From NCBI GenBank assembly GCA_017643395.1, contig JAEPNP010000001.1, positions 1,989,806 through 2,053,805 of the forward strand: DNA of 64,000 nt. The letters are read 5' to 3'. This document shows, one piece after another, positions 29,336 through 59,098 of this stretch (position 1 is its first letter; each line of letters opens with the position of its first letter). Under the pieces are notes generated by a model. It did not search any database, was not told where the DNA came from, and was given only the letters and a program-made list of their open reading frames with translations. Made by a program: the position numbers and the translations under genes. The stretch is from Rhodothermales bacterium. Lineage in GTDB: Bacteria > Bacteroidota > Rhodothermia > Rhodothermales > UBA10348.

Positions 29336-29405
29336 ACCGTCGGGTAGACCGACGGTACCGTTCAGCCCGCGAATCGTCCCTGAGACGGTTCGCGGGCTCG
29401 TTTTT
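29336..29405 (+). terminator. Hairpin plus rho-independent terminator after the SPFH gene
   Basis: First hairpin: ACCGTCGG/CCGACGGT with a 5-base loop at 29336-29356. Second: AGCCCGCGAA at 29364-29373 pairs with TTCGCGGGCT at 29389-29398, followed by CG and five T residues. The second is the likely terminator. The stretch from 29241 to 29335 and from 29406 to 29487 shows no gene. Confidence 0.85.
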
Positions 29406-29487: not shown

Positions 29488-29528
29488 TGTTTCACTTGTT
29501 GAAACAGATTTTGCCGAAACGCTATATT
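29488..29528 (+). promoter_or_regulatory. Sigma70-like promoter with overlapping dyad, upstream of susC
   Basis: A -35 TTGAAA (29499-29504), 18-bp spacer and -10 TATATT (29523-29528) lie about 160 bases before the susC start. A dyad TGTTTCA-N5-TGAAACA (29488-29506) covers the -35 element, as a repressor or activator site would. The 5' untranslated region includes a GCGC-TTCG-GCGC hairpin near 29571. Confidence 0.7.
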
Positions 29529-29689
29529 CCTGTGATTCGGTATCGAGTGTCCCCATAACCCACCCCCGGAGGCGCTTCGGCGCATCCACCTCCAGGACCA
29601 CACTTGGTATCCACTGGGCCTCCCCCGCAACTGGTTCGCCGGTAGCTCCCGCCCAGAAAGACGCAAACATCCACTCATCGGAAAACGCC

Positions 29690-32600
29690 ATGCTAAGAAA
29701 GCTACTGGCGGCGGCCTTCGTCGTCGTGCTGGCTCCATCTATCGCATTCGGTCAGGCCGTTATTACAGGAACGGTCACCGACGGTGACGGCGAGCCGCTT
29801 ATCGGCGCGAACGTTGTCATTGACGAGCTGGTCATCGGCTCGGCAACCGACCTTGACGGACGGTACACGTTCGAAGTACCTGCGGCGCAGGCACGCGGCC
29901 AAAATGTCGCGCTCCGCGCCAAGTTCGTCGGTTTCTCCCCGCAGACGCGGGTCATCACCCTCAACTCCGGCACCCAGACGCAGGATTTCGTCCTGACGTT
30001 CGACCGTCTTCGTCTCGACGAGGTCGTGGTGACCGGTGTGTCCTCCGCTACCCCGGCCAAGAAGCTGGCGTTCACGGTGGACAAACTCGACGCCTCCAAG
30101 GTTGAGCTCGCACCGGCCGCAAACGCCGTGCAGTCCATCCAGGGCAAAATCGCCGGCGCACAGATCACCCAGGCCTCCGGCCAGCCCGGTGACGGTGTGG
30201 CGGTTCGCCTGCGTGGCACGACTTCCCTGACAGGTTCTTCCGCTCCGATGTATATCGTGGACGGTGTGATCCTGACGGGCGGCCTTGCCGACATCGACGC
30301 ACTGGATATCGAGTCCATCGAAGTTGTGAAAGGAGCTGCTGCTTCTTCCCTCTACGGTGCTCGTGCCCAGAACGGTGTAATCCAGATCACCACCAAGCGT
30401 GGCGGAAACATCGCGTTCAACCAGACGCGCGTGACGGTTCGCAACGAGTTCGGCTCCAACAACCTGCAGTTCAGCGACTTCAAAGCCAACGAGGCCCACG
30501 ATCTTCTGATCGATGCCAATGGCAACTTCCTGAACCAGGATGGCGTCAAGAACACCTGCGACACGTGTCTCGCCAGCGGCTACGGCCCGGGCGTTGAGAT
30601 CGATCGTCTGTCGGGTACCGACACCCCGGTGTCGTTCTACGACAATCCGTACTCCGCCTCCGGCGCGCTGACGAACAACTTCGACGAGTTCTTCACGCCT
30701 GGCGACACGTACACGAACTACATCTCGGTCAGCCAGAACAGCGCGAAGACCAACTTCCACGCATCGTTCACCAACTTCCAGGAAGGCGGAATTCTTCCCG
30801 GAATGGACGGATACAACCGGAAGAGCTTCCGCGTCAACCTGGACCACCGCATCAGCGACGACGTGCAGCTGTCAACGTCGACCTACTATGCGGGTGCCAC
30901 CCGTGACGTGCCCCGGTCCTCGGGCTTCAATCCGTTCTTCGGACTGATGTTTACCAACCCGCTGACTAGCCTCTCCCGTCGTGACGACAACGGCAACCTG
31001 CTGGTACAGGCAGACCCGCTGTCCGTCGAGGAGAACCCGCTCTACGTCATCGAGAACGTGGACACCGAAGATCGCGATTCGCGCATCCTTGGTAACGCCC
31101 GTCTGCGCTACGAGCCCACCGACTGGCTCAACCTGGAAGGCAACGTGAGCTACGACCGCCGCGATTCGGACTTCCTCCGCTTCGCAGACCGCGGCACCGA
31201 GTCCATCGACCCGTCCAACTTCAACGACGGTCAAATCCTGCGCTCCAACACCATCAGCGAGGCGCTCAATGCCGACCTGACCGTGTCGCTGCAGCAGACC
31301 TTTGACCAGTTGACGGCTCGCGGCCAATTCAAGTACCAGGCCGAGTCCACCGACTTCATCACGCAGTCGATCACGGGTAACACCCTGACGTCCGAAGGCA
31401 TCGCCGACTTCTCGAACGTGAACGGCGACAAGATCGTCTCCTCGAACGAGCGTACGATTCGCCTCGACGGCCTGTATGCCACCGGTGGCATCGACTTCGC
31501 CGACAAGTACATCGCAGACGTGCTGATTCGCCGCGACGGTTCCAGCCTGTTCGGTGCCGAAGAGCGCTGGCAGACCTACTACCGCGTGTCCGGTGCATGG
31601 CGCGTGAGCGAAGAGTCGTTCTACCCGTTCGGCGACTGGATGGAAGAGTTCAAGCTGCGCTTCTCGCAGGGTACGGCCGGCGGCCGTCCTGGCTTCGAAG
31701 CCCAGTACGAGACCTTCACGCTGTCCAGCGGGCAGCTGTCGAAAGGCACCCTGGGTAACGCCTTCCTGAAGCCTGAGCTGCAGACCGAGCAGGAGTTCGG
31801 TGTGGAGATGGGCATCATGAATCGCATCAGCGCGAGCCTTGTGTACGCCAACGCGAAAGTGGAAGACCAGCTGCTGGTCGTGCCGCTTCCGGGCTACTTC
31901 GGCTTCGGTTCGCAGTGGCAGAACGCCGGTACGATCGAGTCCAACACGATCGAGGCCTCCCTGGACTTCAATGTCTTCAGCGACCGCAACAAGTCGCTCG
32001 ACATCGGCATCGTGTATGACCGCACGAACCAGGAGATCACCGAGTTCAACACGAACCCGTACAAGACGGGCCCGAGCTCCGCGTTCTACTACCGCAACGG
32101 CGAGACCATCGGCGCCATGTACGGCATCCACTTCCTGACGGACGTCAGCGAGCTGGCCGAGCAGACGCTGCAGGATGGCTCCGCCGCCACGACAGGTCGC
32201 GGTGTGCCGACTGGCTTCCAGGCCAGCGCCTTCCAGACCAACGACGACGGCCTGCTCGTGCCGGTAGGCATCGGCAACAGCTACACCGACGGCTTCGCCA
32301 AGGGCCTCTGGGGCAACCGGGTTGATGTCGACGGCGACGGCGACGGCGACATGCTGTTCGGCATGCCGATCAAAGAGGTCAACGACGAAGGTCAGAACTT
32401 CCAGCAGATCGGAGACGTGCTGCCGGACTTCAACCTCGGCTTCTCGACCAACTTCTCCTTCAAGGGCTTCTCGGCGTACATGCTGTGGAACGCTCAGGTT
32501 GGAGGCGACATCTACAACTTCACCAAGCAGTGGGCCTATCGTGACGGACGTCACCAGGACCAGGATCAGCTTGGCAAGGCTGACGGCGACAAGAAGCCGG

Positions 32601-32911
32601 CTCAGTACTACGAAGCACTCTACGATGCTACCGCAGTCAACGACTGGTACATCGAAGACGGCACGTACCTGAAGCTGCGCGAGCTCTCCGTGGGCTACCG
32701 CGTGCCGCGTCAGCGTCTGCAGAGCTGGTTTGGCAACTCGATCGCCGGCCTCTCGGTCAACCTGATCGGGCGCAACTTGCTGACGTTCACCGACTACTCC
32801 GGATTTGATCCGGACGTCGGCGAAGGCAGCGATGCCACCCTGTTCCGCTTCGACGGCTTCGAGTATCCGAAGTACCGGACCTTCACGGGTCGCGTCGAAA
32901 TCCAGTTCTAG
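29690..32911 (+). CDS. SusC/RagA-family TonB-linked outer-membrane transporter
   Basis: 1073 residues from ATG 29690; the open frame continues upstream through promoter and leader and is not coding there. Signal peptide MLRKLLAAAFVVVLAPSIAFGQ, then a carboxypeptidase-regulatory-like domain (ITGTVTDGDGEPLIGANVVIDELVIGSATDLDGRYTFEVP, about 25-110), a plug domain (QSIQGKIAGAQITQASGQPGDGVAVRLRGTTSLTGSSAPMYIVDGVILTG and SIEVVKGAAASSLYGARAQNGVIQITTKRG, about 130-245), and a long beta-barrel ending EYPKYRTFTGRVEIQF with terminal Phe. It imports a ligand captured by its SusD partner downstream; the substrate is not evident. A TonB box is not obvious near DEVVVTG. Confidence 0.95.
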   Translation: MLRKLLAAAFVVVLAPSIAFGQAVITGTVTDGDGEPLIGANVVIDELVIGSATDLDGRYTFEVPAAQARGQNVALRAKFVGFSPQTRVITLNSGTQTQDFVLTFDRLRLDEVVVTGVSSATPAKKLAFTVDKLDASKVELAPAANAVQSIQGKIAGAQITQASGQPGDGVAVRLRGTTSLTGSSAPMYIVDGVILTGGLADIDALDIESIEVVKGAAASSLYGARAQNGVIQITTKRGGNIAFNQTRVTVRNEFGSNNLQFSDFKANEAHDLLIDANGNFLNQDGVKNTCDTCLASGYGPGVEIDRLSGTDTPVSFYDNPYSASGALTNNFDEFFTPGDTYTNYISVSQNSAKTNFHASFTNFQEGGILPGMDGYNRKSFRVNLDHRISDDVQLSTSTYYAGATRDVPRSSGFNPFFGLMFTNPLTSLSRRDDNGNLLVQADPLSVEENPLYVIENVDTEDRDSRILGNARLRYEPTDWLNLEGNVSYDRRDSDFLRFADRGTESIDPSNFNDGQILRSNTISEALNADLTVSLQQTFDQLTARGQFKYQAESTDFITQSITGNTLTSEGIADFSNVNGDKIVSSNERTIRLDGLYATGGIDFADKYIADVLIRRDGSSLFGAEERWQTYYRVSGAWRVSEESFYPFGDWMEEFKLRFSQGTAGGRPGFEAQYETFTLSSGQLSKGTLGNAFLKPELQTEQEFGVEMGIMNRISASLVYANAKVEDQLLVVPLPGYFGFGSQWQNAGTIESNTIEASLDFNVFSDRNKSLDIGIVYDRTNQEITEFNTNPYKTGPSSAFYYRNGETIGAMYGIHFLTDVSELAEQTLQDGSAATTGRGVPTGFQASAFQTNDDGLLVPVGIGNSYTDGFAKGLWGNRVDVDGDGDGDMLFGMPIKEVNDEGQNFQQIGDVLPDFNLGFSTNFSFKGFSAYMLWNAQVGGDIYNFTKQWAYRDGRHQDQDQLGKADGDKKPAQYYEALYDATAVNDWYIEDGTYLKLRELSVGYRVPRQRLQSWFGNSIAGLSVNLIGRNLLTFTDYSGFDPDVGEGSDATLFRFDGFEYPKYRTFTGRVEIQF

Positions 32912-32920
32912 TTGCCCTGG

Positions 32921-32946
32921 AGCCGGGCCGCTGCGGCGGCCCGGCT
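32921..32946 (+). promoter_or_regulatory. Intercistronic hairpin between susC and susD
   Basis: AGCCGGGCCG pairs perfectly with CGGCCCGGCT around a six-base loop. No T-tract follows, so it is more likely an mRNA-stabilising or partial-termination element that sets the susC to susD ratio than a full terminator. Confidence 0.6.
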
Positions 32947-32998
32947 ACCCGGTCACTCTTGACCAAGGCAACCAAGCAAACTGCTTAAGAGGAAACAC

Positions 32999-34630
32999 AT
33001 GAAGTTCCGTTTCACTATTGGCCTGGCCGTCGTGCTCATGTTTGGGCTCACGGCCTGCCAGGATCTCTCTGTAGAGAATCCGAACAACCCGGACCGGACC
33101 AAGGCTCTGGCGTCCCCGCAGGACGTTGAGAAGCTGGCGTCCGATACGTTTACTGACTACTGGGCCTCCATGCAGTGGTCTTCCCGGTCCATGCCGTGGT
33201 CGACCATTGCTGACGAGATCTCCAGCTCCTGGGCCAACTGGGGCATGCGCGACATGTCCTCCGAGCCGCGCATCGCGTGGAACAACGACCCGGCCTACAA
33301 CCGTGAGGAAATGACCGAATCCCCGTGGTTCGGCTCCTACGGCTGTATCTCCAATGCGGCTGACGCCCTGATTGCCGTCGAAGGCAACGAGGCGCTGTAC
33401 GAGTCGCAGGGCATCGACACGAACCGCATCAAGGCGTTCGCCAAGATGAACCTGGGCCTGTGCCTGGGCAACCTGGCAACCCGCTTTGACCGCGCGTTCA
33501 TCGTTGATGAGACCACCGACCTGGAGGCAGTTGCTCTCGGTCAGGTCGAGCTGGAGCTCGCTCCGTACACGGAAGTCCGTGACGCAGCGATCGCCAAGAT
33601 CGACGAGGCCATTGCCATTGCTTCTTCCAACGCGTTCACCATCACGGACGCCGAGGACTGGGTATTCGGTCTGACGGTTGACAACAACGACCTCGTTCGT
33701 ATCTCGAACTCGTTCGTGGCACGCATCATGGCCTCGAATGCTCGCACCACGGAAGAGCGCGCCGCAGTGGACTGGGGTGAAGTCATTCGACGTGTGGATG
33801 CCGGCATCACCGAGGACTTTGCTCCGATCGGTGACGACAACGGCGACATTCGCGAGTGGGACGCCATGAAGTTCTACGGCCAGGAGCATCGCACCTGGGC
33901 GCGCGCTGACTACCGCTCGATCGGTCCCGCCGACGAGTCCGGTGGATACGCGACCTGGCTTGCCACGCCGACTTCGTCCCGGAACGTGTACTCCGGTCTG
34001 ACCACGCAGGACCGTCGCATCATGGGTGCCGGCGGCCCCGAAGAAAGCGGCAGCTACTTCCGCTATGTGGGCGTTCCTGGTCCGTTCCCGTCCTCGCGCG
34101 GTACGTACCACTACAGCTCGCACACGCACAACCGCTTCAAGCCGTACCAGGAAAACAACGCCAACGGTGTCATGACGCACATGACCAAGGCCGAGATGGA
34201 CCTGTACAAGGCTGAGGGTCTGCTTCGCACCGGCGGTTCCGCCGCTACGGTTGCACAGCTGATCAACAACACGCGTGTTGCCAACGGCGAACTGCCGCCG
34301 GCAACGGCATCGACTCCCGCCGGCTCGCCGGGTGACGGATCATGGAGAAACACCGAGATCCACATCAACGGCACGCTCTGGGGATACCTGATGCACGAGT
34401 TCCGCATGGAGACCTTCGCAACCGCAGGTGCGCTGGCATACGCCAACGACCGCGGCTGGGGAGACCTCGTGCAGGGAACGCCGCTGCACTACCCCGTACC
34501 GGGCGCCGAGCTTGAGACGCTTGGTCTCGACAACTACACCTTTGGCGGTGTAGGCGGCCCGAGCGCTGCGCCTAAGAACAAGGCGGATCGCTACCTGGCC
34601 ATCGAGGAGCGCAACGTACGCGTCAAGTAA
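32999..34630 (+). CDS. SusD/RagB-family surface lipoprotein
   Basis: 543 residues, a lipoprotein with lipobox LTAC after MKFRFTIGLAVVLMFG; the mature part starts CQDLSVENPNNPDRTKAL, typical for SusD. A purine-rich AGAGGAAACAC gives a fair ribosome site. Helical TPR-type scaffold with YRSIG, LTTQDRRIM and the C-terminal RMTKAEMDLYKAEGLLRTG-like segment (here MTKAEMDLYKAEGLLRTGGSAATVAQLINNTRVANGELPP). SusD lids capture the ligand over the SusC barrel. It lies 87 bases after susC, with a hairpin in the gap. The order susC-susD is standard. Confidence 0.93.
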   Translation: MKFRFTIGLAVVLMFGLTACQDLSVENPNNPDRTKALASPQDVEKLASDTFTDYWASMQWSSRSMPWSTIADEISSSWANWGMRDMSSEPRIAWNNDPAYNREEMTESPWFGSYGCISNAADALIAVEGNEALYESQGIDTNRIKAFAKMNLGLCLGNLATRFDRAFIVDETTDLEAVALGQVELELAPYTEVRDAAIAKIDEAIAIASSNAFTITDAEDWVFGLTVDNNDLVRISNSFVARIMASNARTTEERAAVDWGEVIRRVDAGITEDFAPIGDDNGDIREWDAMKFYGQEHRTWARADYRSIGPADESGGYATWLATPTSSRNVYSGLTTQDRRIMGAGGPEESGSYFRYVGVPGPFPSSRGTYHYSSHTHNRFKPYQENNANGVMTHMTKAEMDLYKAEGLLRTGGSAATVAQLINNTRVANGELPPATASTPAGSPGDGSWRNTEIHINGTLWGYLMHEFRMETFATAGALAYANDRGWGDLVQGTPLHYPVPGAELETLGLDNYTFGGVGGPSAAPKNKADRYLAIEERNVRVK

Positions 34631-34656
34631 CCCCGGTTACTTGCTGATTTCTCTGG

Positions 34657-34698
34657 AGAGGGCCGGGCGGCTTGGTCGTCCCGGCCCTCTTCCGTTTT
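34657..34698 (+). terminator. Terminator after susD
   Basis: AGAGGGCCGGG (34657-34667) pairs with CCCGGCCCTCT (34680-34690), then TCCGTTTT. A strong 11-bp stem with a short T-tract. The gene after it begins at 34718, so some read-through into the lipoprotein genes is plausible. Confidence 0.75.
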
Positions 34699-34717
34699 CC
34701 CCCAAACCCGGAGAACC

Positions 34718-35209
34718 ATGAGACCCCGTTTTTTTCTTCTGATTGCACTGATGGCGTTTCCGGTAGTGCTTGCCGGCTGCGCGAGTTCCGGAAACACCGG
34801 CGCTCGGCAGAGCCAGGTCAGGGCCAATCTGGGCACGGCCGCGCGATCGACGCTGGTCAACGAGACCGTGCAGATCCTGACGTCCCGGTACGGCTACAAC
34901 ATGCTCCGCACGGTGATGGACACCGAGGACATGCGATTCGAAACCGACTGGAAGCAGGAGTCGGCGCTCGCCGATGAGAAGGATCAGGGCTACACGCACG
35001 CCCGAACCAAGATTACGGTCACGGCCCGGCCGCGTAATCGCTCCACGTCGGGCTCGCAGAACCTGGCCGTGAACTTTGTGGCCGAAACCCAGGTCTTGCC
35101 GTTCGGCAATGAGGTCTGGATTTCCATCGAGCCGACCGACGAACGAAAGGACGCGCTCCGCCAGATTTCCACGTACCTTCGCCGCACGTACCAGACTGCG
35201 ATGCGATGA
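34718..35209 (+). CDS. Small hypothetical lipoprotein
   Basis: 163 residues. Signal MRPRFFLLIALMAFPVVLAGCASSG with a perfect lipobox LAGC. The mature domain holds RSTLVNETVQILTSRYGYNMLRTVMDTEDMRFETDWKQES, then beta strands (ARTKITVTARPRNRSTSGSQNLAVNFVAETQV, NEVWISIEPTDERKDALRQISTYLRRTYQTAM). No family recognised. GGAGA precedes the ATG. It overlaps the carboxypeptidase gene by ATGA, so the two are co-translated and probably sit together on the outer membrane. Confidence 0.82.
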   Translation: MRPRFFLLIALMAFPVVLAGCASSGNTGARQSQVRANLGTAARSTLVNETVQILTSRYGYNMLRTVMDTEDMRFETDWKQESALADEKDQGYTHARTKITVTARPRNRSTSGSQNLAVNFVAETQVLPFGNEVWISIEPTDERKDALRQISTYLRRTYQTAMR

Positions 35210-36438
35210 GCAGAAATGCCCTGCTGATTTTCATGACGGCCGCAGTCCTCACGGGCTGCGGCCGTCGTGGTGCTGTGCCGTTGTCGTACGATCCCCCGGG
35301 GTCGACGATCACCGTTTCCAAGCCGATAACGACCCCGGACCGGCGCACGTGGAATGTGGGCGCCATCGGTGTCACAAATGACTATGTAGGGGCACGCCTG
35401 AACGAGTTGACCCAGGTCAACGATACCCTGCTGCTCGGAACGATTCGGCCTGAGAACGCCCCGATCAACAACAGCGCCTGGTTTGGCTTCAAGATCTGGT
35501 CCGAAACCGACCGGGATGTGTGGGTGAGGCTGGAGTACGAAGACGGGGATCACCGGTACATTCCCAAAGTGAGCAGCGATGGCTCGGCCTGGCGTGCTAT
35601 CGATAACTCGGCTTTTCGGGTCGATACGACCGGAGAGCGCCGTGCCGGCCTTATGAAACTGCGTGTATCTCCGGACACACTCTGGGTGTCCGGCCAGGAA
35701 CGGCTTGTCAGCACGTTCTACGACGACTGGACGGCTCTCATTGCCGGGCACCCCGACGCAACGCTGCGAAGGGTCGCCGAGTCTACGTATGGATCGCCGA
35801 TTCGTCTGCTGGACATGGGACCCGACGACTCCGATGAGTTCGTCCTGCTCATTTCGCGCCAACATCCGCCTGAAGTCACCGGTGCCCTCGCCGTGCTGAC
35901 CTTCATTGAGCGCATCATGCAGGAAGACGATCTGGCGCGCGCTTTTCGGGCGAGGTACCGCATCCTGGCCGTGCCGCTCATGAATCCGGACGGCGTGGAC
36001 GATGGGCACTGGCGCCATAACGCCGGCGGGGTCGACCTCAACCGGGACTGGATCGCCTTCAATCAGCCGGAAACCCGGGCTGTGGCCCAATACTTCGTGG
36101 ACACAGTGGGCGACGGCACCGTGCGCTTCGCCGCGGATTTCCACTCCACTCAGGTTGACGTGTTCTACACCACGCTGCGCCACCTGGTATCAAACACGCC
36201 GGGATTGGTAGACCTCTGGCTGGCCGATATTGCGGAGGCACTGCCTGACTACCACGTGAACGACGCGCCGCGCGATGTCGAATCGCCAACTTCCAAGAGC
36301 TGGTTTTATCTCCAGTTCAACGCCACGGCGATGACCTACGAGGTGGGTGACGAGACCGACCGGGATACGATCCGGGCCGTCGCAACGGCAGGAGCAGAGT
36401 CCATGATGCGGCGTTTGCTGGACGTTCCTGCAAACTGA
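35206..36438 (+). CDS. M14-family zinc carboxypeptidase-like lipoprotein
   Basis: 410 residues; lipobox LTGC at 15-18. Residues about 30-165 form a beta-rich N-terminal domain (VWVRLEYEDGDHRYIPKVSSDGSAWR), as in the subgroup of M14 peptidases with a jelly-roll front. The catalytic domain has His220 and Glu223 (RQHPPEVTG), NPDGVDDGHWRHNAGGVDLNRDW, the third zinc ligand His313 (DFHST) and catalytic Glu379 (TYEVGDETD). All zinc and catalytic positions are intact. Probably removes C-terminal residues or cleaves amide-linked side groups at the cell surface. It lies between the SusCD pair and the CRTAC lipoproteins, suggesting peptide-containing ligands. Confidence 0.88.
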   Translation: MSRNALLIFMTAAVLTGCGRRGAVPLSYDPPGSTITVSKPITTPDRRTWNVGAIGVTNDYVGARLNELTQVNDTLLLGTIRPENAPINNSAWFGFKIWSETDRDVWVRLEYEDGDHRYIPKVSSDGSAWRAIDNSAFRVDTTGERRAGLMKLRVSPDTLWVSGQERLVSTFYDDWTALIAGHPDATLRRVAESTYGSPIRLLDMGPDDSDEFVLLISRQHPPEVTGALAVLTFIERIMQEDDLARAFRARYRILAVPLMNPDGVDDGHWRHNAGGVDLNRDWIAFNQPETRAVAQYFVDTVGDGTVRFAADFHSTQVDVFYTTLRHLVSNTPGLVDLWLADIAEALPDYHVNDAPRDVESPTSKSWFYLQFNATAMTYEVGDETDRDTIRAVATAGAESMMRRLLDVPAN

Positions 36439-36451
36439 ACCCGCCTGCCTG

Positions 36452-39400
36452 GTGCGACTCCTTTGTATCGGCCTCGCGGTCCTGACGGCCGCCGGCTGCG
36501 CCGAACCTCCGCCGCCCGCAGAGTGGGTCGAGGCCGCCGATCACAGGTGGATCGAGCTCCGGCCTGAGGGACGAGGGGCGGGCTTCTCTCCCGTGTCTGG
36601 AACCGGGATAGACTTCACTGGCACACTGTCCGACTCTGCGTTCCTGGGCAACCGGCATCTCGTCAACGGGGCCGGTGTCGCCATCGGGGACGTGGATGGA
36701 GACGGCCTGCCGGATGTGTTCCTTGCAGGCCTCGAAGCGTCGTCCCGGCTTTACCGCAATCGGGGCAACATGCAGTTCGAGGACGCGACCGAAGCGGCAG
36801 GGCTGGCCCTTGAGGCGTGGCAAAACACCGGGGCCGCTTTCCTCGACACCGACGGCGACGCCGACCTGGATCTTGTGGTCACCGTGCTGGACGGTCCAAG
36901 CATGCTGCTGCTCAACGACGGCACCGGGAGATTCCAGGAGGACGGATCCTGGCCCGGCAAGCTGGCCGGGCCTCGCGGGGGTACCACCCTTGCGGCTGCC
37001 GACATCGACGGCGACACGGACCTGGACGTCTATGTCACGAACTACCGACGGCACACCGTAAAAGACCTCTACCACCCGGACGAGATTACCTTTGAGGAGA
37101 CCGTAGTCCGGGAAGGCGATGCGTTCCGCATGCTGCCGCCCTTCGACGAGTACTACCGCATCGAAGTCCAGAAGCGTAGGGTCATGCGCTACCAGTACGG
37201 CGAGCCGGACATGCTACTGGTCAACGAGGGAGGCAGCTTCCGGGACGCAACCACGACAGCCTTTCCAACCGGCACTGACCTGCCCGAGGATTGGGGCCTG
37301 GCGGCGCAGTTCCGGGATCTGGACCTGGACGGCGATCCCGACCTCTACGTGTGCAACGATTTCGAGGGCCCCGACCACATCTGGATCAACCGCGGAGACG
37401 GCACATTCCGGGCACTGCCGCAGCTGTCTTTGAGGCACACACCGCAGTCATCTATGGCGATAGACGGCGCGGACGTGGACCGGGACGGTGACATAGACCT
37501 CTTCGTCACAGAGATGCTCAGCCGCACACACGAGCGGAGGTTGCGGCAGGTGCCCGGTCCCCCGCCCATCATTCCCGAGCCGGGCGAGATCCAGGTCCGC
37601 CCCCAGGTAATGCACAACTCCCTGTTCCTGGCGCAGCCGGCCGTGCGCGCGGGACAGCCGCAAATCGGCGTGCAGGACTATGTCGATGCCGCCTGGGCGT
37701 TTGACGTTGCTGCGTCAGAATGGTCATGGGCCGCCATCTTCCTGGATGTGGATCTGGACGGCTGGGAGGACCTGCTCATTTCGACTGGCCATCGCTACGA
37801 CGCGATGGACCTGGATACCCAGACCAGCATGGCCGGCCGCAGGTCGGGAGACGACTGGACGGCGGAGCTTCTCGAATTCCCTCGCCTGGACCTCAACAAC
37901 GTCGCGTTCCGCAATGAGGGTGGCACCCACTTTACGGAAGTGGCGGAAGGGTGGGGCTTCGGTCTCGAGCCTGACGTGACGCACGGCGTGGCGTTCGGTG
38001 ACCTTGACGGCGACGGAGATCTGGACCTGGTCGGCAACCGCCTGCAGAACACCGCCGTGGTCTGGCGCAATGAGGCGGACGCGCCGCGCATCGCCGTGCG
38101 ACTGCGAGGTCGGGGAGGGAATCGGTTCGGGATAGGGGCCCGGGTCACGCTGGAAGGCGGGGGCATGATGCAGCAGAAGGAAATTCTCGCCGGGGGCCAG
38201 TATCTGTCCGGCAGCGAGCCCATCGCCACTTTCGCCGCGCTCTCGGGCACGATGGTGCTGACCGTGCACTGGCCGTCCGGAGCCCGTACCACGTTGCCGG
38301 TGCAGCCAAACCGCCTCTACGAGGTGGACGAGCCGTCGGGCAGCAGTGAGCCCGCGCCCCCGCCCGGCCCGGCTGCCCTTTTCAGCGCCGAGCAACTCGC
38401 CGACCACCAGGACGCACACTTTGAGGATCGAGCCCGCCAGGCCCTGTTGACGCGTCGCCTCAGCAACGACGGCCCCTATGCAGCGAGCGGAGACCTTGAT
38501 GGTGACGGCCGTGCCGAGGTCGTCATCGGCACCGGAGGGGGCGGCCGACCGGTCGTGTACCTGAATCGCGCGGACGGGCTCGTTCCCGCCGACGTGTCGG
38601 TGGTCAGGCCCGCGGCGGGAGACTGGGCAGGACTCGCCGTATCCACCGGACGACTGATCGCAGCAGTGAGCGGATACGAGACCGACCTTCCGTCACGCCT
38701 GGACCAGTATTCCCTGAACGGCGAGCGCCTGGTGGACCGGGGAAGCATCAATTTGGGTGGCGGCTCACCGGGGCCGCTTGCAGTGGCCGATGTGGACGGT
38801 GACGGCGACGACGACCTGTTTGTCGGCATGCGTTTCCTGCCGAATCGCTACCCGTCGTCGGTACCCAGCCGTTTCTACATGCGGGAGGGCGATGCACTTA
38901 TGCCGGGCCCTGAGCTGCCCGCCGGCCTGGTGACCGGAGCCGCGTTCGCCGATGCGGATGGGGATGGCGATCAGGACCTCGCCATCTCCACGGAGTGGGG
39001 TCCGGTGCTGCTTTATCTGAACGACGGCAACGGCGGATTCTCAGACGCCACGGATTCGTGGGGCCTGGGCGATCACACGGGCCTGTGGCGCAGCGCGACG
39101 TGGCTGGACGCGGACGGCGATGCACTTCCGGACCTGCTGACCACAAATTGGGGCTGGAATTCCACCTACGGTCGCATCGGTGCCCCGGACTATGAGGGTC
39201 GAGGCCGTCGCCTGTACTTCGGTGACTTCGACCGCAACGGCTCTGTGGACCCGGTGGAAACGGAGTACGTGGAATCCCTTGATGCCTGGGCCCCCATCCA
39301 TCGCCTGATGGACCTCGTCCGGGGTCTGCGGTACGTCACGCGTCGCATGGAGACTGCCTCGGAATATGCCAACGCATCTATTTCCGATGTGCTCGGGCCC

Positions 39401-39802: not shown

Positions 39803-42800
39803 GGGTACTGCTCCTGGCGTTGCTGGTGGCGGGCTGCACGGGCACGCCTCAACAGCCCACCGAGTGGGTGCAGGAAGACGGCTATCGCTGGCGGCAGCTG
39901 GCCGTGAAGGGCAAGGGCGCCGGTTTCACGGAGGTGGGAGGCGTCGACTTCATGAACGTGCTCTCCGACGCGGCCATCGTGCAGAACCGGAATCGCATGA
40001 ACGGCTCCGGCGTGACGATCGGAGACGTGGACGGTGATGATCGCGCGGACATTTTCTTCGCGGCCATGGAGTCGAAGCCCAGGCTATACAGAAATCTGGG
40101 CGATTGGACCTTCGAGGACGTGACCGAACAGGCCGGCCTTGCGGCTGCGCCGCACTGGTCTACGGGCGCCGTGTTCGTGGACGTGGACGCCGATCGGGAC
40201 CTGGATCTGTTTCTGACGGTGCTGACCGGCCCGAACGTGCTCTACCTCAATGACGGATCGGGCCGATTTGAGGCCACGCCCGCCGGTGTCGAGTCTGGAC
40301 GGGGCAGCATGGGTGCCGCGTTCGGGGATCTGACGGGCGATGGGGTTCTGGATCTGTACGTGGCGAACTACAAGCGCATCGCGGCGCGGGATACGTTTCC
40401 TCCGGATCGGCTGCTGTTTCAGAATCTGGTGGGGCCCGACGGCTCCGTGGTCCCGGAGATGGCCGACCACTTTCGCATCGACGAGGTGGACGGACAGCCT
40501 TTGAGGTTGGAGTTGGGGGAGGAGGATCAGTTCTACCGGGGGAACGGAGACGGCACGTTTACGGAGGTCGATCCGCCGGTCGAAGTGGATCGGGACTGGG
40601 GGCTGACGGTCCGTATCCAGGACTTCAGTGGTGACGGGGAGCCGGATCTGTACGTGGCCAACGATTTCGAAAGCCCCGACTACGTGTCGGCATCACAAGC
40701 CGGGGAACTGACGCTTGGGCATACCCCGAATTCCAGCATGGCGGTGACCGCGGCCGACATCAACCGGGACGGCATCCCGGATGTATTTGTGCCCGACATG
40801 CTGAGCCCGGACCCGAAGGCGCGTCGCTTTCAGGCCGGTACGGCAGCTCCGGTGCGCATCCCGCCGGGCGACCACCATTCCGTGCCTCAGTACATGCAGA
40901 ATGCCCTGTTCGTCTCGTCAGGAAATCAGCACATGGCGGAGGTGGCGCAGGCCTATGGGGTCGAGGCGACCGAGTGGACCTGGGGCGCCGAGTTCCTGGA
41001 TGTGGATCTCGACGGGCATGAGGATCTGCTGATGACCACAGGCCACTCCTTCGACGTGCAGGATGTGGACGCCCAGATGCGCGAGCGGGAGGCCATCCGG
41101 CGCGTGCGATCCGTGGAGCAGTTCCGCAGCCTCATCCTCGACTACCCGCGACTGGAACTGCCCAACATGTCTTTGCGCAACATCGATGGCGAGCGCTTCG
41201 AGCCCATCGACTGGGGATTCACGGACGAGCCGGACATCTCCCACGGCATGGCGCTTGGTGACCTGGACGGGGACGGTGATCTGGATGTCGTGGTGAACCG
41301 CCTGAACAAACCGGCAGGGGTGTTTCGCAACGATGCATCGGCGCCGCGAATCGCGGTCAGATTCAGGCTGGAAGGTGACAACCCGTTCGGTATTGGCTAC
41401 TTCGCCGGCGGCAAGGAGATCATTGCCGGTGGAGGCTACCTGTCCGGACATGAAGCCCTGATTTCTCTGCCTGCAGACAGCTCGCTCAGGCTGGCGCACG
41501 GGGCCGGCCGGCAGAGCTTGCGGGTTCAGCCGAATCGCCTCTACGAAATCCAGGAGTACGAGTCGGGAATCCGGCGCGAAGGCCGGCCGCCGCCGCCCTT
41601 CACCGACACCCTCGCCACCCACACCGACCTCCCTTTCGACGACCGCACGCTTCAACCGCTTCTGCCGCACACGCTGGCCTCCAACGGCCCGTTCCTCATC
41701 AAGGGAGATCTCGACAACGACGGACAGGAGGAACTGCTGATCACCCCCGGTCGACGCGGGCGCCCACAACTGCTGATGGCCGATGGCACCCGCATCGAGG
41801 GCCCGGAAGCCGACGGCGACTGGACCGGCGCCGCGATCCAGGACGGACAGATAATCGCGGCCGTATCGGGCTACGAGACCGGCACCACCGGCTCGCTGAT
41901 CCGCCTTGATCTGGAGGACGGCCGTCTTCTCGAAACGACACGTCAACCGCTGGATTTCGTGCTAACCGGCCCGGTGGTCACGACCGACAACATCGTCTTC
42001 GTAGGTGCCCGGGCCGAGGCCGGCCGCTACCCCATCGCCCAGCCGAGCCTGCTCATTCCCGGCGGCGAACTGGAAGCGGGCATGGTCACGGGGGCCGACT
42101 TCGGCGATTTTGACGGCGACGGTGACGCCGATCTGGCGGTGAGCAACGATTGGGGGCGGATCCGCATCTTCGAGAACCGCGATGGCACCTTCGCTGAGAT
42201 CGACGGCCCGGAGGAAACCGGCCCGTGGCGAACCGTGACATGGACCGACCACAACGGCGACGGGCGCCTGGACCTCTTCGCCGGAAATCTGGGCTGGAAT
42301 TCGCGTCTGGGCGCGCCGGACCGGGACGGCAAAACGGTTCGCCTGTACCACGGCGACTTCGATGGCAACGGCACCTACGATGTGCTGGAGGCCGAATACC
42401 GGAACGATATCCGCGATTGGAGCCCGATCCTGGACTTCAATACGCTGCGCAACGCCCTCCCCGGTATCGCGCGCCGGGTGAGTTCGTGGCATGCCTATGC
42501 CGGCTCCAGCGTGGAGGACCTGTTCGGGGAGGATCTCCAGTACCTCGAAGCCAATACGCTCGCGAGTACCGTCTTCATCCAGACGGACCGCGGGTTTGAG
42601 GCCCAGAGCCTGCCCTTTGAGGTTCAGTGGGCGCCTGCCAACGCATTCGGCGTGCAGGGAGACTCGCTGTACATCGCCCAGAATTTCTTCCCGGTGTTTC
42701 CGGAAAGCAGAACCCGGCATGATGCGGGACGTGGATTGCGGCTCACGCCTGGAAGCCTGAAGCATCTCGGCGTCTTCGGGGATCAGCGGGGCATCGCGCG

Positions 42801-42861
42801 CTGGCGGGAGGGCGTGGTGATCGGCCTGAATGCCGGCCCGGTAGTGTGGATCCAGTGGTGA
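39799..42861 (+). CDS. CRTAC-type lipoprotein: VCBS/FG-GAP propellers with ASPIC/UnbV domain (2)
   Basis: 1020 residues, GTG start inside the previous stop, lipobox VAGC. Same architecture as the preceding gene: TIGDVDGDDRADIFFAAMESKPRLYRNLGDWTFEDVTEQAG, FVDVDADRDLDLFLTVLTGPNVLYLNDGSGRF, then a shortened ASPIC/UnbV segment (about 520-585, NPFGIGYFAGGKEIIAGGGYLSGHEALISL), then a second propeller half (IKGDLDNDGQEELLITPGRRGRPQLLMADG). Both share the closing block AQNFFP(L/V)(L/F)PE, so they arose by an old tandem duplication. The compact ASPIC segment is the main difference. Confidence 0.88.
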   Translation: MRVLLLALLVAGCTGTPQQPTEWVQEDGYRWRQLAVKGKGAGFTEVGGVDFMNVLSDAAIVQNRNRMNGSGVTIGDVDGDDRADIFFAAMESKPRLYRNLGDWTFEDVTEQAGLAAAPHWSTGAVFVDVDADRDLDLFLTVLTGPNVLYLNDGSGRFEATPAGVESGRGSMGAAFGDLTGDGVLDLYVANYKRIAARDTFPPDRLLFQNLVGPDGSVVPEMADHFRIDEVDGQPLRLELGEEDQFYRGNGDGTFTEVDPPVEVDRDWGLTVRIQDFSGDGEPDLYVANDFESPDYVSASQAGELTLGHTPNSSMAVTAADINRDGIPDVFVPDMLSPDPKARRFQAGTAAPVRIPPGDHHSVPQYMQNALFVSSGNQHMAEVAQAYGVEATEWTWGAEFLDVDLDGHEDLLMTTGHSFDVQDVDAQMREREAIRRVRSVEQFRSLILDYPRLELPNMSLRNIDGERFEPIDWGFTDEPDISHGMALGDLDGDGDLDVVVNRLNKPAGVFRNDASAPRIAVRFRLEGDNPFGIGYFAGGKEIIAGGGYLSGHEALISLPADSSLRLAHGAGRQSLRVQPNRLYEIQEYESGIRREGRPPPPFTDTLATHTDLPFDDRTLQPLLPHTLASNGPFLIKGDLDNDGQEELLITPGRRGRPQLLMADGTRIEGPEADGDWTGAAIQDGQIIAAVSGYETGTTGSLIRLDLEDGRLLETTRQPLDFVLTGPVVTTDNIVFVGARAEAGRYPIAQPSLLIPGGELEAGMVTGADFGDFDGDGDADLAVSNDWGRIRIFENRDGTFAEIDGPEETGPWRTVTWTDHNGDGRLDLFAGNLGWNSRLGAPDRDGKTVRLYHGDFDGNGTYDVLEAEYRNDIRDWSPILDFNTLRNALPGIARRVSSWHAYAGSSVEDLFGEDLQYLEANTLASTVFIQTDRGFEAQSLPFEVQWAPANAFGVQGDSLYIAQNFFPVFPESRTRHDAGRGLRLTPGSLKHLGVFGDQRGIARWREGVVIGLNAGPVVWIQW

Positions 42862-44996
42862 GGTGGCTTCCGGTGATAGCGCTCCTGGCGGCCTGCGGCG
42901 CCCCGCCCCAGCCGACCGACATGGACGGCACCGCCGCCATGGCCGCGCGCCTGGCCGCACTCGCCGATTCCACCGAGGCCAATCCCATCATCAACGCGCA
43001 CGCCAACAGTGCGCGCGTGGCACGCCTGATCGAAAACGGCCCGCCGCCATCGCCTGAGCAACGGCTCTTCTGGGAGATCAACCTGGCCCAGGAGCGACTG
43101 CGCGCGGGAGACAACGAAGGGGCCATCGCCGGTTTCGAGGCCGCCCTGGAGCAGTCGGAGCGGTTTCCCCCTGCGCAGAAACTGGCCCTGCTGGATCTGC
43201 TCGCGATCTCCTACATGCGCCTTGGCGAGCAGGAAAACTGTATCGACGATCCAAGCGCCGATCGATGCATCTGGCCGATCGTGGAGAATGGCGTGCACCG
43301 CTATCCGCGCGGCTCGCAGAACGCGATTGAGCGCTATGAGGAGATCCTCGCGCAGGATCCCGATGACCTGAACAGTCGCTGGCTGCTCAACGTCGCGTAC
43401 ATGACGCTGGGAGCATGGCCGGACGGCGTGCCGCCTGCACAGAGGCTGCCGACACCCGCATCCGAAGCCTCGATGCCGCGCTTCCTGGACCGCGCAGGCC
43501 CCACAGGCACGGACGTGGAAGGCCTTTCGGGCGGCGTGGTCATGGAGGACTTCGATGAGGACGGCCTGCTGGACATTATGGCGTCGAGCTGGGGACTTCG
43601 CGACCCGCTACGGCTCTTTCTGAACGATGGGCAGGGTGGTTTCCAGGAGGCAGACACCGGCCTGGACGGCATCACCGGCGGCCTCAATCTGGTGCATGCC
43701 GACTACGACAACGACGGCGACGCGGACGTGCTGGTCCTGCGTGGAGCCTGGCTCTACCACGGGTGGCCGAACTCCCTGCTGCGAAACGAAGGGAATGGCC
43801 GGTTTGTGGATGTCACCCTGGCAGCCGGACTGGGCGGTGAGTTTCCCAGCCACTCTGCCGCCTGGTCCGACTACGACAACGACGGCTGGCTGGATGTCTT
43901 CGTCGGGCATGAAACCAACCCCGAGGCAGGGTTCATTCCAAGCCAGCTGTTCCGCAACCGTGGCGACGGCACGTTTGAGGACGTCAGCGAATCCACTGGC
44001 CTGCGAGCCATCGGGTACGTCAAGGGCGCGGTGTGGGGAGACGTGGACAATGACGGGCGTCCGGACCTGTACGTCTCCAACCTGTACGGAGCCAACCAGC
44101 TCTGGATGAATCGGCCGGAGGGGTTCGTGGAGTCCGCCCGAGAGGCAGGCGTCACAGAGCCCGAGGATTCCTTCCCGACTTGGTTCTGGGACGAGAACAA
44201 TGACGGCCACCTGGACCTTTTCGTCTCCGGCTGGCGCGCCATGGCGGGCGATGTGGCCGCAGAATACCTGGACCTGCCGCACCGGGCTGAGCCGCCGCGG
44301 CTGTTCCGTAATCGGGGAGACGGCACCTTCGAGGACGTGACAGCGGAGCGGCGTCTGGATCGCGTGCTGTACACTATGGGTGCCAACTTCGGCGACCTGA
44401 ATGGCGACGGCTGGCTGGATCTCTACCTGGGCACCGGGGATCCAGACTTTCGCGCGTTGATGCCGAACCGCATGTTCATCGGAGGCCCGGACGGCTTCCG
44501 GGAGGTGACCGAAGCCGGCGGTTTCGGCCATCTGCAGAAGGGGCATGGCGTGGCGTTCGGGGACCTGGACCACGACGGCGATCAGGACGTCTATGCCGTA
44601 ATGGGAGGCGCATTCGAAGGGGACGTCTTCCGGAACGTGCTGTTTGAAAACCCGCTGGACGTGCAGTCGTGGGCGACGCTGCGTCTGGAGGGCACGACCA
44701 GCAATCGGTCTGCCGTGGGAGCACGCGTGCGCGCAGTGGCCGGAGGCCGAAGCCTCCACCGGCTGGTCGGGTCGGGTGGCAGCTTTGGCGCCCAGTCGTT
44801 TCGCGTCTACCTCGGGCTGAACGGGGCTACGCGCATCGATACCCTGGAGGTCACCTGGCCGTCTGGCCGAACGGACGTGTTCACGGATCTGCCGGTACGC
44901 GCCCACTATGCCCTGTCGGAGGGCGCCGAGGCACCGACACCCCTCAACCTGCCCGGATTCCGGCTGTCGGATCAGCCCCCCGATCATGCGCATTGA
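42858..44996 (+). CDS. TPR plus VCBS plus ASPIC/UnbV lipoprotein (3)
   Basis: 712 residues from the GTG at 42858 in a GTGA overlap (a GTG at 42846 adds four residues). Lipobox LAAC. Residues about 25-200 are helical TPR-like (FWEINLAQERLRAGDNEGAIAGFEAALEQSERFPPAQKLALLDLLAISYMRLGEQENC, NAIERYEEILAQDPDDLNSRWLLNVAYMTLG). A VCBS propeller follows (VVMEDFDEDGLLDIMASSWG, HADYDNDGDADVLVLRG, GDLNGDGWLDLYLGTGD), then a full ASPIC/UnbV domain near 595-680 (SAVGARVRAVAGGRSLHRLVGSGGSFGAQSFRVYLGLNGATRIDTLEVTWPSGRTDVF). Completes a translationally coupled trio of propeller lipoproteins. Confidence 0.88.
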   Translation: MRWLPVIALLAACGAPPQPTDMDGTAAMAARLAALADSTEANPIINAHANSARVARLIENGPPPSPEQRLFWEINLAQERLRAGDNEGAIAGFEAALEQSERFPPAQKLALLDLLAISYMRLGEQENCIDDPSADRCIWPIVENGVHRYPRGSQNAIERYEEILAQDPDDLNSRWLLNVAYMTLGAWPDGVPPAQRLPTPASEASMPRFLDRAGPTGTDVEGLSGGVVMEDFDEDGLLDIMASSWGLRDPLRLFLNDGQGGFQEADTGLDGITGGLNLVHADYDNDGDADVLVLRGAWLYHGWPNSLLRNEGNGRFVDVTLAAGLGGEFPSHSAAWSDYDNDGWLDVFVGHETNPEAGFIPSQLFRNRGDGTFEDVSESTGLRAIGYVKGAVWGDVDNDGRPDLYVSNLYGANQLWMNRPEGFVESAREAGVTEPEDSFPTWFWDENNDGHLDLFVSGWRAMAGDVAAEYLDLPHRAEPPRLFRNRGDGTFEDVTAERRLDRVLYTMGANFGDLNGDGWLDLYLGTGDPDFRALMPNRMFIGGPDGFREVTEAGGFGHLQKGHGVAFGDLDHDGDQDVYAVMGGAFEGDVFRNVLFENPLDVQSWATLRLEGTTSNRSAVGARVRAVAGGRSLHRLVGSGGSFGAQSFRVYLGLNGATRIDTLEVTWPSGRTDVFTDLPVRAHYALSEGAEAPTPLNLPGFRLSDQPPDHAH

Positions 44997-45061
44997 GGCG
45001 CGGTTTGCAGCAGTCCGCGGTACCCGCCGGAACCCTGCGCGGCGCTTGAAATAGGCAGTAC

Positions 45062-47191
45062 ATGCCTCGATTGCTTCGATTCGCGGTCCTCGCAGCCGTT
45101 TCCCTGTTCTGTGCGCTGCCCCTGCACGCGCAGGCTGAGCGCGACTATTTCAACGCGGGTATGCGGGCGTTCGAGGCGGGGGACTTCGGCGCCGCGGCCG
45201 CCCAGTTTGATTCCCTGGTGGCACGGTCGGCGGCCTGGTCGGACCTCGAGTATGGTGCTGCGGCTTATTGGCTTGGGGCGGCTCTGCGGGAGACCGGACA
45301 GGACAGCGCAGGCGTAGCTGCATGGAGAGCGGGGGTCATGGCGATGCTCGAACAGGGCTCCTTCGATGTCCGCCTGGCTGATTCCTATCTGGATCATCTC
45401 ATGGCGGCACCCGGGCGCCTGGACGAGGCTCTTCCGACGGCCGTGGATCTTTACGTCAACCTGCTCTACAACGTCGATGCGCTGCTGGACGAGGAAGAAT
45501 CTGCACGGTTGCGCAGACATGTCGCGCAACTGGCCCTGGTTGCTCCCGCGGGAGTCATGCAGGACGCAGGGCGCGGGGACGCTCTGGGCGCAGGGGCGAC
45601 CTGGAGTGCTCGATCCGGTGCGGGACCGCTCCTGGTTACCTGGTGGCGCAGCCAGGATCCGGTGCCGGCCACAAGGAGCAACGAGCGGTTGGAAGAGCAT
45701 TTACGCCGCGTTGCCCACGTCCAGCGCGAATTCTCCGATGTGGATCGGCCCGCTGGTGTGGACGACCGTGGGGAGATCTACCTGCGCTACGGCCCGCCGG
45801 AGGAAGAAATCAAAGTCCGCTTCGATGACCCGGTGCTCACCGACATCGTATATCGACCCGGTGTGGCGGTGAGTCTCTCGGATTTCCCGGACAACGAGTT
45901 CTGGGTGTTCGGCCATATCGACCGCTCGGCGTGGTTCCTGTTCGTCGAGGACAAGGGATCCTATCGCATCGCGGAGACGGAGGATCTGGTACCCAACCAA
46001 TTGCGCACCGGATTCGGCCCCAGCCAGCGCGGCCGCATCAAGGCGGGCATGACCATCGCTGTGCTGCAGAACATCTTCCGGCAACTGGCGCCCCTGCATC
46101 CGGACTTCGCCATCCGGTATGCGGAGGTGGATAACTACGCCATGCGCATGCCGGAATTCCAGCCTGGGCGCCTGGCCAATCGTACCTCCGGCAGTCTGGC
46201 TGCGATTCCCGGTGGCGTCACGGGGGAGACCCAGGCAGAGCAGCCGACGGCATTTATCCAGACCATGATGGTCAAGTCGCGGACCGAGGATGATGAGTCG
46301 ATCTCCCGCAGGGAAGAGTACGCGCCCAGGGTCTACACAGAGGCGCTCTCCGATGCCGGCGAACTGCGGATGGGTTATCGCACAGTGCGCTACCTGGAAC
46401 CCGACGGTTCCACGCGCACGGTCATTCACTGGAGCCCTGAGCCCGGCGAACTGAGACCTGGCCGGGGCGAGCGCCGCATCCTGGATGAGATGGCCTACGA
46501 AGACAGCGGGCGCTATCTCCTGACGTTGACGGCCGTTCAGAAGACGGCGGAATACCTGGACCGCGTCGTGCACACAGACCGTTTCCTGGTCGATGACCTC
46601 CCGAACCAGGACGAGGCCATTCCGGTGCAGCAGACGACGCTGCTCGGCGACACGACGCTCTTCAACGTCGCCATGCAGTGGGACCAGTATGCCATGGGTG
46701 CCTCGCGCACCAGGAAGGGCCCCCGCATTCGAGTGGCCACCGCGCAGCTGGACAGTCTGCCGCCGCTCAACGCTGATCCGGGTGTGCTGGAGATGAGTGA
46801 TCTCCTGCCGATGACGGCGCTGTTGGCGTCCAGCCCGGCTGACTTCGTTCCCACGCCGTACCCGTTCGGCACCCTGACGCGCGAACTGCAGCTGGCACTC
46901 TCGTTTGAGGTCTATCACCTGGCCTTCGGTGCGGATGACCAGACGCGATACACGGTGTCGTTCGACGTCGCTCGCAACGACAGCCGCGGCGGATTCCTGT
47001 CGCTGCGAGGGCGCGATCAGGGCACCAGTTCCAGCTTCCAGAGCACCGGCACCTCCCGCAAGGCCAACGAAATGATCCTGATCGATCTGCAATCCTGGGA
47101 GGGAAGTGGCGAACTCGACATCACGGTAACCGTCACGGATGATGTGAGCGGCCAGGCCATCACCCGTGACATCACGTTTGAGTTGCGGTGA
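45062..47191 (+). CDS. Exported GWxTD-like domain protein with N-terminal TPR
   Basis: 709 residues with a signal peptide MPRLLRFAVLAAVSLFCALPLHAQA and no lipobox Cys. TPR-like helices span about 28-130. The central part matches the GWxTD domain outline: WWRSQDPVPATRSNERLEEHLRRVAHVQREFSD...RGEIYLRYGPPEEEIKVRF, but the signature GWxTDRG reads GVDDRG, so Trp and Thr are lost. The C-terminal half is beta-rich and ends SGELDITVTVTDDVSGQAITRDITFELR. GWxTD proteins are exported and poorly understood; they often sit near ASPIC/UnbV genes, as here. Its stop overlaps the next gene as GTGA. Confidence 0.8.
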   Translation: MPRLLRFAVLAAVSLFCALPLHAQAERDYFNAGMRAFEAGDFGAAAAQFDSLVARSAAWSDLEYGAAAYWLGAALRETGQDSAGVAAWRAGVMAMLEQGSFDVRLADSYLDHLMAAPGRLDEALPTAVDLYVNLLYNVDALLDEEESARLRRHVAQLALVAPAGVMQDAGRGDALGAGATWSARSGAGPLLVTWWRSQDPVPATRSNERLEEHLRRVAHVQREFSDVDRPAGVDDRGEIYLRYGPPEEEIKVRFDDPVLTDIVYRPGVAVSLSDFPDNEFWVFGHIDRSAWFLFVEDKGSYRIAETEDLVPNQLRTGFGPSQRGRIKAGMTIAVLQNIFRQLAPLHPDFAIRYAEVDNYAMRMPEFQPGRLANRTSGSLAAIPGGVTGETQAEQPTAFIQTMMVKSRTEDDESISRREEYAPRVYTEALSDAGELRMGYRTVRYLEPDGSTRTVIHWSPEPGELRPGRGERRILDEMAYEDSGRYLLTLTAVQKTAEYLDRVVHTDRFLVDDLPNQDEAIPVQQTTLLGDTTLFNVAMQWDQYAMGASRTRKGPRIRVATAQLDSLPPLNADPGVLEMSDLLPMTALLASSPADFVPTPYPFGTLTRELQLALSFEVYHLAFGADDQTRYTVSFDVARNDSRGGFLSLRGRDQGTSSSFQSTGTSRKANEMILIDLQSWEGSGELDITVTVTDDVSGQAITRDITFELR

Positions 47192-59062: not shown

Positions 59063-59072
59063 AGATTCTCGG

Positions 59073-59098
59073 ATCCGGGGTCCTCAGGGACCCCGGAT
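59073..59098 (+). promoter_or_regulatory. Intercistronic hairpin after the TonB receptor
   Basis: ATCCGGGGTCC pairs perfectly with GGACCCCGGAT around a TCAG loop (11 bp). No T-tract follows. It resembles the hairpins at 32921 and 62564. Confidence 0.65.

Follow-up and report, generated by a model that had tools for sequence, protein, structure and literature searches.

SusCD loci are usually interpreted through their enzymes. The core of the locus described here is without a recognised enzyme and encodes the importer together with a series of propeller-type lipoproteins. The locus is an eight-gene collinear cluster on the + strand, located at ∼29.7–47.2 kb of a 64-kb stretch of DNA from a Rhodothermales bacterium (contig JAEPNP010000001.1; the whole stretch is hereafter referred to as the window). 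It encodes a SusC transporter, a divergent SusD, a small partner lipoprotein (smLP), an M14 carboxypeptidase, three proteins with FG-GAP repeats (CRTAC-A, CRTAC-B and TPR/CRTAC) and an exported GWxTD-domain protein. The obtained results tip the balance slightly towards a SusCD importer in which the propeller-type lipoproteins would act as capture subunits. The analysis shows the gene content, the conserved order of the genes, the linkage of smLP to SusCD and the optional nature of the carboxypeptidase, whereas a complex, ligand binding by the propellers and differential expression are inferred.

Gene Content of the Locus

Reading of the open reading frames (ORFs) returned the eight genes in the order proposed by the initial annotation, which had been made from the sequence alone, and placed all of them on the + strand. 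The first gene (29690..32911) encodes a SusC/RagA-family TonB-dependent transporter that scored 560.7 bits against TIGR04056 (cut-off 368.25) and also matched PF13715 (CarbopepD_reg_2) and PF07715 (Plug), in agreement with its earlier assignment. The start of this gene is most likely the ATG at 29690, which is followed by the signal peptide, rather than 29468 or 29488. The second gene (32999..34630, + strand) encodes a divergent SusD lipoprotein (Cys20). The SusD call made previously found no Pfam or NCBIfam match of its own, and was upheld by profile comparison. The protein joined a Rhodothermus-type SusD set (hhalign 98.2%, E 3.7e-14; 0.2% for an unrelated control) as well as the SusDs of Gemmatimonadota (profile-profile 100%, 3e-91). 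One member of the Rhodothermus-type set (L250) matched the NCBIfam NanU/SusD models below their cut-off (E 8.8e-18). When compared with the PDB, the close SusD profile A2 reached only E 0.0041 at best, and the stronger match of profile A5 (3fdh, E 1.2e-13) derives from an alignment in which one such divergent member is present. The SusD identity therefore rests on profile comparison, by which the gene directly downstream of susC is read as a SusD-type lipoprotein.

The remaining genes, all on the same strand, encode smLP (34718..35209; 163 aa), the M14 zinc carboxypeptidase lipoprotein (35206..36438), CRTAC-A (36452..39802; 1116 aa), its paralogue CRTAC-B (39799..42861; 1020 aa), TPR/CRTAC (42846..44996; 716 aa) and the GWxTD protein (45062..47191). 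Lipobox-like signals were present in SusD, smLP, M14 and all three CRTAC proteins. The latter had been described as VCBS/ASPIC-UnbV lipoproteins, a description that holds in all three for the FG-GAP repeats, which scored over the cut-off, and in two for UnbV_ASPIC, which was over the cut-off in CRTAC-A and TPR/CRTAC and undetected by Pfam in CRTAC-B. CRTAC-A and CRTAC-B are probably double-propeller proteins. The exported GWxTD-like protein proposed earlier was recovered by TIGR04514 (40.7 bits, cut-off 28), and a PDB sequence search with it gave no useful match. From susD to the GWxTD gene, the junction spacings were +87, −4, +13, −4, −16 and +65; only two of the six are four-base overlaps, so that the statement that most junctions after susD are of this kind was not borne out. 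Searches of the eight genes with Pfam and NCBIfam, made without a CAZyme-specific library, returned no glycoside hydrolase, lyase, sulfatase or sensor-regulator. On these matches, the core of the locus is without a recognised hydrolase.

Conservation of the Gene Order

The recurrence of the set was surveyed in 114 genomes of the order, in which the loci were annotated by six-frame profile searches. The complete order SusC-SusD-smLP-CRTAC-CRTAC-TPR/CRTAC-GWxTD was found on one contig in nine genomes, namely the window's own (G000), G040, G050, G060, G061, G063, G064, G068 and G071. An extra TonB-receptor-like gene (883/886 aa) precedes GWxTD in G068 and G071, and an insertion lies between the two CRTAC genes of G040. 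The set was also found in another phylum, where contig L082 of KSB1 carries SusC-SusD-smLP-smLP-CRTAC-[thioredoxin-like]-CRTAC-TPR/CRTAC-GWxTD without M14. In gene order and with the thioredoxin-like gene omitted, the identities to the window proteins were 42, 40, 33, 27, 41, 40, 50 and 21%. The ordered set that the initial annotation had proposed to search for therefore recurred in nine genomes and in KSB1 with respect to susC, susD, the CRTAC genes, TPR/CRTAC and GWxTD, and not with respect to M14. A shorter series, SusC-SusD-CRTAC-TPR/CRTAC, was observed on the Gemmatimonadota contig L099. Identities to the window proteins between families were 33–34% for smLP, 39–46% for CRTAC and 49–60% for SusD, with the order kept.

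The A2 SusD profile matched 36 of the 114 genomes, and 22 of these hold 24 window-type places at 820 bits or more. A CRTAC-A gene was found beside one such SusD in all 22 genomes, among which the loci of G047, G062, G070, G072 and G113 are cut by contig ends and that of G002 extends across a contig break. Second window-type SusC-SusD copies occur in G063 (L171) and G064 (L169), where the contig continues downstream for another 0.8 kb and 2.8 kb, respectively, and contains neither smLP nor CRTAC in that part. Incomplete loci included those of G047, G062, G070 and G072, which stop at contig ends, that of G001, with a contig break within CRTAC-B, that of G002, with the set scattered over short contigs, and that of G059, where the stretch stops after the first CRTAC. 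G047 carries an additional GWxTD gene before SusC. In four genomes of the f14 family, the CRTAC gene next to SusC-SusD runs in the opposite direction, and smLP was not detected.

Beyond these loci, there is a second clade of long CRTAC genes, divergent from the first, whose members are found in SusC-SusD-CRTAC(-CRTAC) loci elsewhere in the genomes. Of 33 loci of this clade, 22 had a SusC (at least 230 bits) within the stretch, and in each of these 22 the nearest SusC was on the same strand. The 33 loci were chosen from the better non-window matches; related genomes and some contig ends are among them, and G028 and G030, among others, are left out.

Linkage of the Small Lipoprotein to SusCD

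No sequence match to smLP was found in the Pfam, NCBIfam or PDB searches, and its distribution was followed with profile A9. It was detected in 22 of the 114 genomes of the order, a count that includes a decayed copy (G059) and one assigned by position, where smLP lies upstream of SusC (G090). Among 394 genomes sampled across the phylum, it was found in 18, ten of which belong to the order. Within the order, smLP adjoins SusC or SusD at 22 of 22 places. Outside of it, there were 11 smLP places in eight genomes, and a blind test identified a SusC over the TIGR04056 cut-off at all ten testable ones; the eleventh (G128:C6), with which its contig begins, was left out. At these ten places SusC is on the same strand and 1.69–2.17 kb upstream of smLP, which corresponds to a SusD-sized gap, and in G320 this gap contains a window-type SusD (402.9 bits). 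Taken together, smLP lies beside SusC or SusD at 32 of 32 testable places, and it is the tightest partner of SusCD. An apparent smLP-CRTAC fusion in G059 was rejected, as the ORF merely reads through the decayed smLP.

The predicted smLP model, built from three sequences, had a mean predicted local distance difference test score (pLDDT) of 75.1. Its closest structural match was the BamC N-terminal domain (Z 8.2, root mean square deviation 4.6, 103 aligned), and the next five matches were BAM-complex or BamC entries too. The Foldseek E-value of 0.009 is weak, and Z-scores near 8 are common between unrelated folds according to the alignment tool's own note; the BamC-like helix-grip fold is therefore suggestive only.

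The Carboxypeptidase as an Optional Component

The M14 protein scored 54.7 bits against PF00246 (cut-off 21.6), and H220xxE223, N279-R280, H313 and E379, which we take to be the zinc and catalytic positions of the M14 family, were invariant across six aligned homologues. The intact active site noted previously was thus confirmed. The M14 profile reached E 1e-20 or better in seven of the 114 genomes, and M14 was located inside the cluster only in three genomes of the window's genus. At the same cut-off it was absent from every other cluster-bearing genus, as it was from the KSB1 cluster. The initial annotation had held that the occurrence of such genes next to unrelated ones would count against a single system, and for M14 this is what was observed. 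In G005 and G010, which belong to the window's family, M14 stands alone between SPFH and MGMT, and SusCD is missing from the site. The M14 genes of G032 and G054 are located at other places, where a second M14 peptidase and a malectin/PKD protein are their neighbours. In G047, a GDSL hydrolase fills the slot between smLP and CRTAC-A (L073:15579-17375).

The slot between smLP and CRTAC-A is therefore optional and holds enzymes that differ by lineage. M14 was rejected as a core component and as a clue to the substrate, since it belongs to the cluster in one genus only, is kept without SusCD and has a GDSL alternative. The earlier suggestion that the carboxypeptidase implies a peptide or amide substrate is consequently without comparative support, and M14 is better described as a local, lineage-specific addition. 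The locus illustrates how reading the substrate off a single adjacent gene can mislead.

The Chromosomal Site

The cluster is flanked upstream by an SPFH/Band_7 gene and downstream by an MGMT-like gene (47188..47517, + strand; −4 from GWxTD), which is followed by aroA (EPSP synthase) and an adenosine deaminase gene on the other strand. Using aroA as an anchor, which was present in 106 of the 114 genomes, 60 further adjacent stretches were read and annotated. Both SPFH and aroA were found in 31 stretches, of which 26 are free of the cluster (25 with MGMT and one without), with a distance of 312–616 bases between SPFH and aroA. The other five comprise M14 only (G005, G010), SusC-SusD only (G033, G032) and the whole set (the window). 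In the Rhodothermus-like genomes G076, G028 and G042, SusC-SusD-GWxTD-MGMT lies beside aroA, with smLP ahead of SusC in G028 and G042. The site is thus an old one, and it was found full, partial or empty. MGMT was rejected as a member of the system because it resides there even where the cluster is absent. In the KSB1 cluster, an MGMT candidate was likewise discarded, being a 106-aa ORF without a match. The aroA-anchored stretches did not give a clean background for SusC density, as the site itself carries SusCD in 11 of 42.

Predicted Expression and Location of the Proteins

A consensus scan placed a terminator-like hairpin of 15 pairs with a T run between the SPFH gene and SusC (29364..29398, + strand). 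A weak sigma-70-like promoter match lies upstream of susC (29499..29528, + strand), where two matches were found against a mean of 2.8 in shuffles. The susD-smLP intergenic region contains a hairpin (34628..34717, + strand; −42.3 kcal/mol, z −3.75), which is a candidate attenuator or 3′ stabiliser. At this junction the stem was stronger than all 40 mononucleotide shuffles, which preserve base content only, in 13 of 17 related genomes. The misses were G040, G062, G065 and G072, and some of the gaps were shortened by the chosen start. The stem sequences differ between groups, and within the window's genus the stems, viewed by eye and uncounted, seem to keep pairing despite base changes. These features suggest that susCD is probably expressed above the accessory genes by means of the hairpin after susD.

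An acidic export-signal rule was applied to the lipoproteins. Of the SusD rows, 18 of 20 passed; none of the 17 smLP rows and none of the four M14 rows did, nor did the M14 of the window. A few genes appear twice among these rows (L164/L224, L162/L222), and a few signals were misread, the window not being among them.

Proposed Function and Alternative Explanations

In the arrangement that we favour, SusC would form the barrel and the divergent SusD its lid, with smLP as a conserved small partner lipoprotein. CRTAC-A, CRTAC-B and TPR/CRTAC would most likely be positioned at SusC or close to it and capture the ligand, by analogy with the extra lipoproteins of glycan utilisomes and with the single-propeller BtuG on BtuB. 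The exported GWxTD protein would be an associated factor, and the hairpin after susD would probably let susCD accumulate above the accessory genes.

Several observations weigh against this arrangement. Most accessory lipoproteins were not predicted to be surface-exposed by the acidic-residue rule; the rule was derived in other Bacteroidota, and this result therefore calls for caution and is not a refutation. Relatives of the long CRTAC proteins are frequently encoded where SusCD is absent. Among the matches listed, SusC was present in eight of 79 named loci (L080, L082, L083, L093, L099, L104, L108 and L114), none of the eight in Verrucomicrobia or Akkermansia records; the 79 loci derive from the best 80 CRTAC-A profile matches, and many of the contigs are short. 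As these relatives often occur without SusCD, they are not dedicated to it. In the second CRTAC clade, 11 of the 33 loci had no SusC in the stretch, and in G320 no CRTAC was found within 1.5 kb after smLP. G065 and G066 carry the set in two pieces, with SusC-SusD-smLP-CRTAC at one place and CRTAC-TPR/CRTAC-GWxTD-MGMT at the aroA site. The partial site states described above, SusC-SusD alone and the Rhodothermus-like SusC-SusD-GWxTD without CRTAC, also belong here. The GWxTD model was poor (mean pLDDT 43.8) and unusable.

TPR/CRTAC and GWxTD were found away from SusCD too, and together with the split genomes this partly bears out the kind of scattering that the initial annotation had named as evidence against one system. 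TPR/CRTAC homologues with 47–57% identity occur in eight further genomes, seven of which were viewed. They lie beside a TonB-receptor/DUF5723-like trio in G042 and G032, beside SusC and CRTAC-CRTAC in G056, beside shorter TPR/CRTAC-like genes in G031, and on short contigs without SusC in G027, G030 and G041.

Among the rival explanations, dedicated peptide or amide uptake, in which M14 would trim peptides outside the cell for import by SusCD as in RagAB, appears improbable. The M14 gene has an intact active site and overlaps smLP by four bases, and RagAB, a SusCD-type complex, is reported to be implicated in protein and peptide uptake (PMC11817032). However, M14 is missing from the other cluster genera and KSB1, stands alone in G005 and G010, is replaced by a GDSL hydrolase in G047, and its lipid cysteine is without an acidic export signal in all four rows and the window. 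It is also unlikely that the genes hitch-hike, being kept together by the stability of the site while CRTAC, TPR/CRTAC and GWxTD serve a purpose unrelated to SusCD, such as calcium-dependent surface adhesion. The position of the set at a single site flanked by SPFH and MGMT/aroA, the wide occurrence of long CRTAC without SusCD and the split in G065 and G066 would be expected from such an origin, and in marine flavobacteria FG-GAP repeats were read as calcium-binding adhesion repeats (PMC2668756). The order is nevertheless kept at low between-family identities, KSB1 has the set, the second clade with SusC-SusD-CRTAC is found elsewhere, and SusC-SusD-smLP-CRTAC remain together even in the split genomes.

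A role in biogenesis, with smLP, GWxTD and the TPR protein assembling SusCD or delivering it to the surface without binding a ligand, retains a small probability. It is consistent with the resemblance of the smLP model to the BamC N-terminal domain, the absence of an acidic export signal in all 17 smLP rows, and the presence of GWxTD with SusCD where CRTAC is absent. The Z-score and Foldseek E-value are, however, of a size that argues little for a shared fold, and three propeller lipoproteins would be left unexplained. It is conceivable, although less likely than not, that the locus further represents a distinct class of SusCD systems with an enzyme-free core, a divergent SusD, an obligate smLP of BamC-like fold and, in Rhodothermales and KSB1, pairs of double-propeller CRTAC proteins as calcium-binding capture arms. 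If this were true, some members of the large CRTAC/UnbV family of bacteria would have a defined role as capture subunits of TonB transporters.

Further Observations on Related Loci

Some related arrangements were recorded during the survey. Two or three tandem long CRTAC genes without SusCD are common on Verrucomicrobiota contigs (L088, L098, L101 and others). In L192, L193 and L194, which represent three genomes, a reverse GWxTD gene lies between a long CRTAC and a SusC that is followed by a SusD-sized gene; these loci are not at the site occupied in the window. On the KSB1 contig, the gene between the CRTAC genes is thioredoxin/AhpC-like (L082:9122-9583), and after the cluster comes a TPR protein, part of which resembles a multihaem cytochrome (L082:18280-21270). 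The window itself contains, at 55601-63672, a trio of TonB-receptor-like, 1134-aa and DUF5723-like genes, the relatives of which recur elsewhere, some of them adjoining CRTAC or TPR/CRTAC genes (L063, L166, L233, L258, L259).

Comparison with Known Systems

The gene set was undescribed in the literature searched, from which subscription journals were mostly absent. It connects TonB-dependent uptake with the CRTAC/UnbV proteins of bacteria and with a small lipoprotein that has no Pfam model, and it provides concrete gene sets that can be tested, probably including one in cultured Rhodothermus. The individual components have recognisable relatives. The M14 protein resembles, by profile match (E 4.6e-22 to 6.7e-19), the bacterial M14 carboxypeptidases 3l2n, 4b6z, 3k2k and 4a37, which are presumably cytosolic-carboxypeptidase-like, and differs from them as a lipoprotein within an outer-membrane gene cluster. 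The CRTAC-A alignment profile matches CRTAC1 of the CRTAC1/UnbV_ASPIC family (9etn, E 9.4e-31), whereas CRTAC-A and CRTAC-B are about twice as long, lipid-anchored, bacterial and encoded beside SusCD, and CRTAC-B is without a detectable UnbV.

As a whole, the locus shares with SusCD/RagAB importers and the polysaccharide utilisation loci (PULs) of Bacteroidota the order of SusC, then a SusD-type lipoprotein, then further lipoproteins in the same direction. In place of surface glycan-binding proteins (SGBPs) and carbohydrate-active enzymes (CAZymes), it has smLP and three FG-GAP proteins, and its SusD is too divergent for Pfam. Judged by the enzymes that Pfam and NCBIfam recognise in it, the locus is not a PUL. 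A parallel is offered by the utilisomes for levan and dextran in Bacteroides thetaiotaomicron, where extra lipoproteins and SusCD are joined in one complex with SusC as the platform (PMC7618045). Both systems encode additional lipoproteins alongside SusCD. The extra subunits of the utilisomes are a glycoside hydrolase and an SGBP (PMC7618045), whereas in the window the candidates for such subunits are smLP, the long CRTAC proteins of propeller type and the TPR-propeller protein. The other parallel is BtuG, a seven-bladed propeller lipoprotein that caps the TonB transporter BtuB and binds its ligand (PMC10404256). The likeness lies in a propeller-type lipoprotein beside a TonB-dependent transporter, which in the window is indicated by gene context and FG-GAP repeats only. 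BtuG is one propeller and itself the lid (PMC10404256), whereas the window system would combine a SusD lid with long FG-GAP/UnbV propeller proteins.

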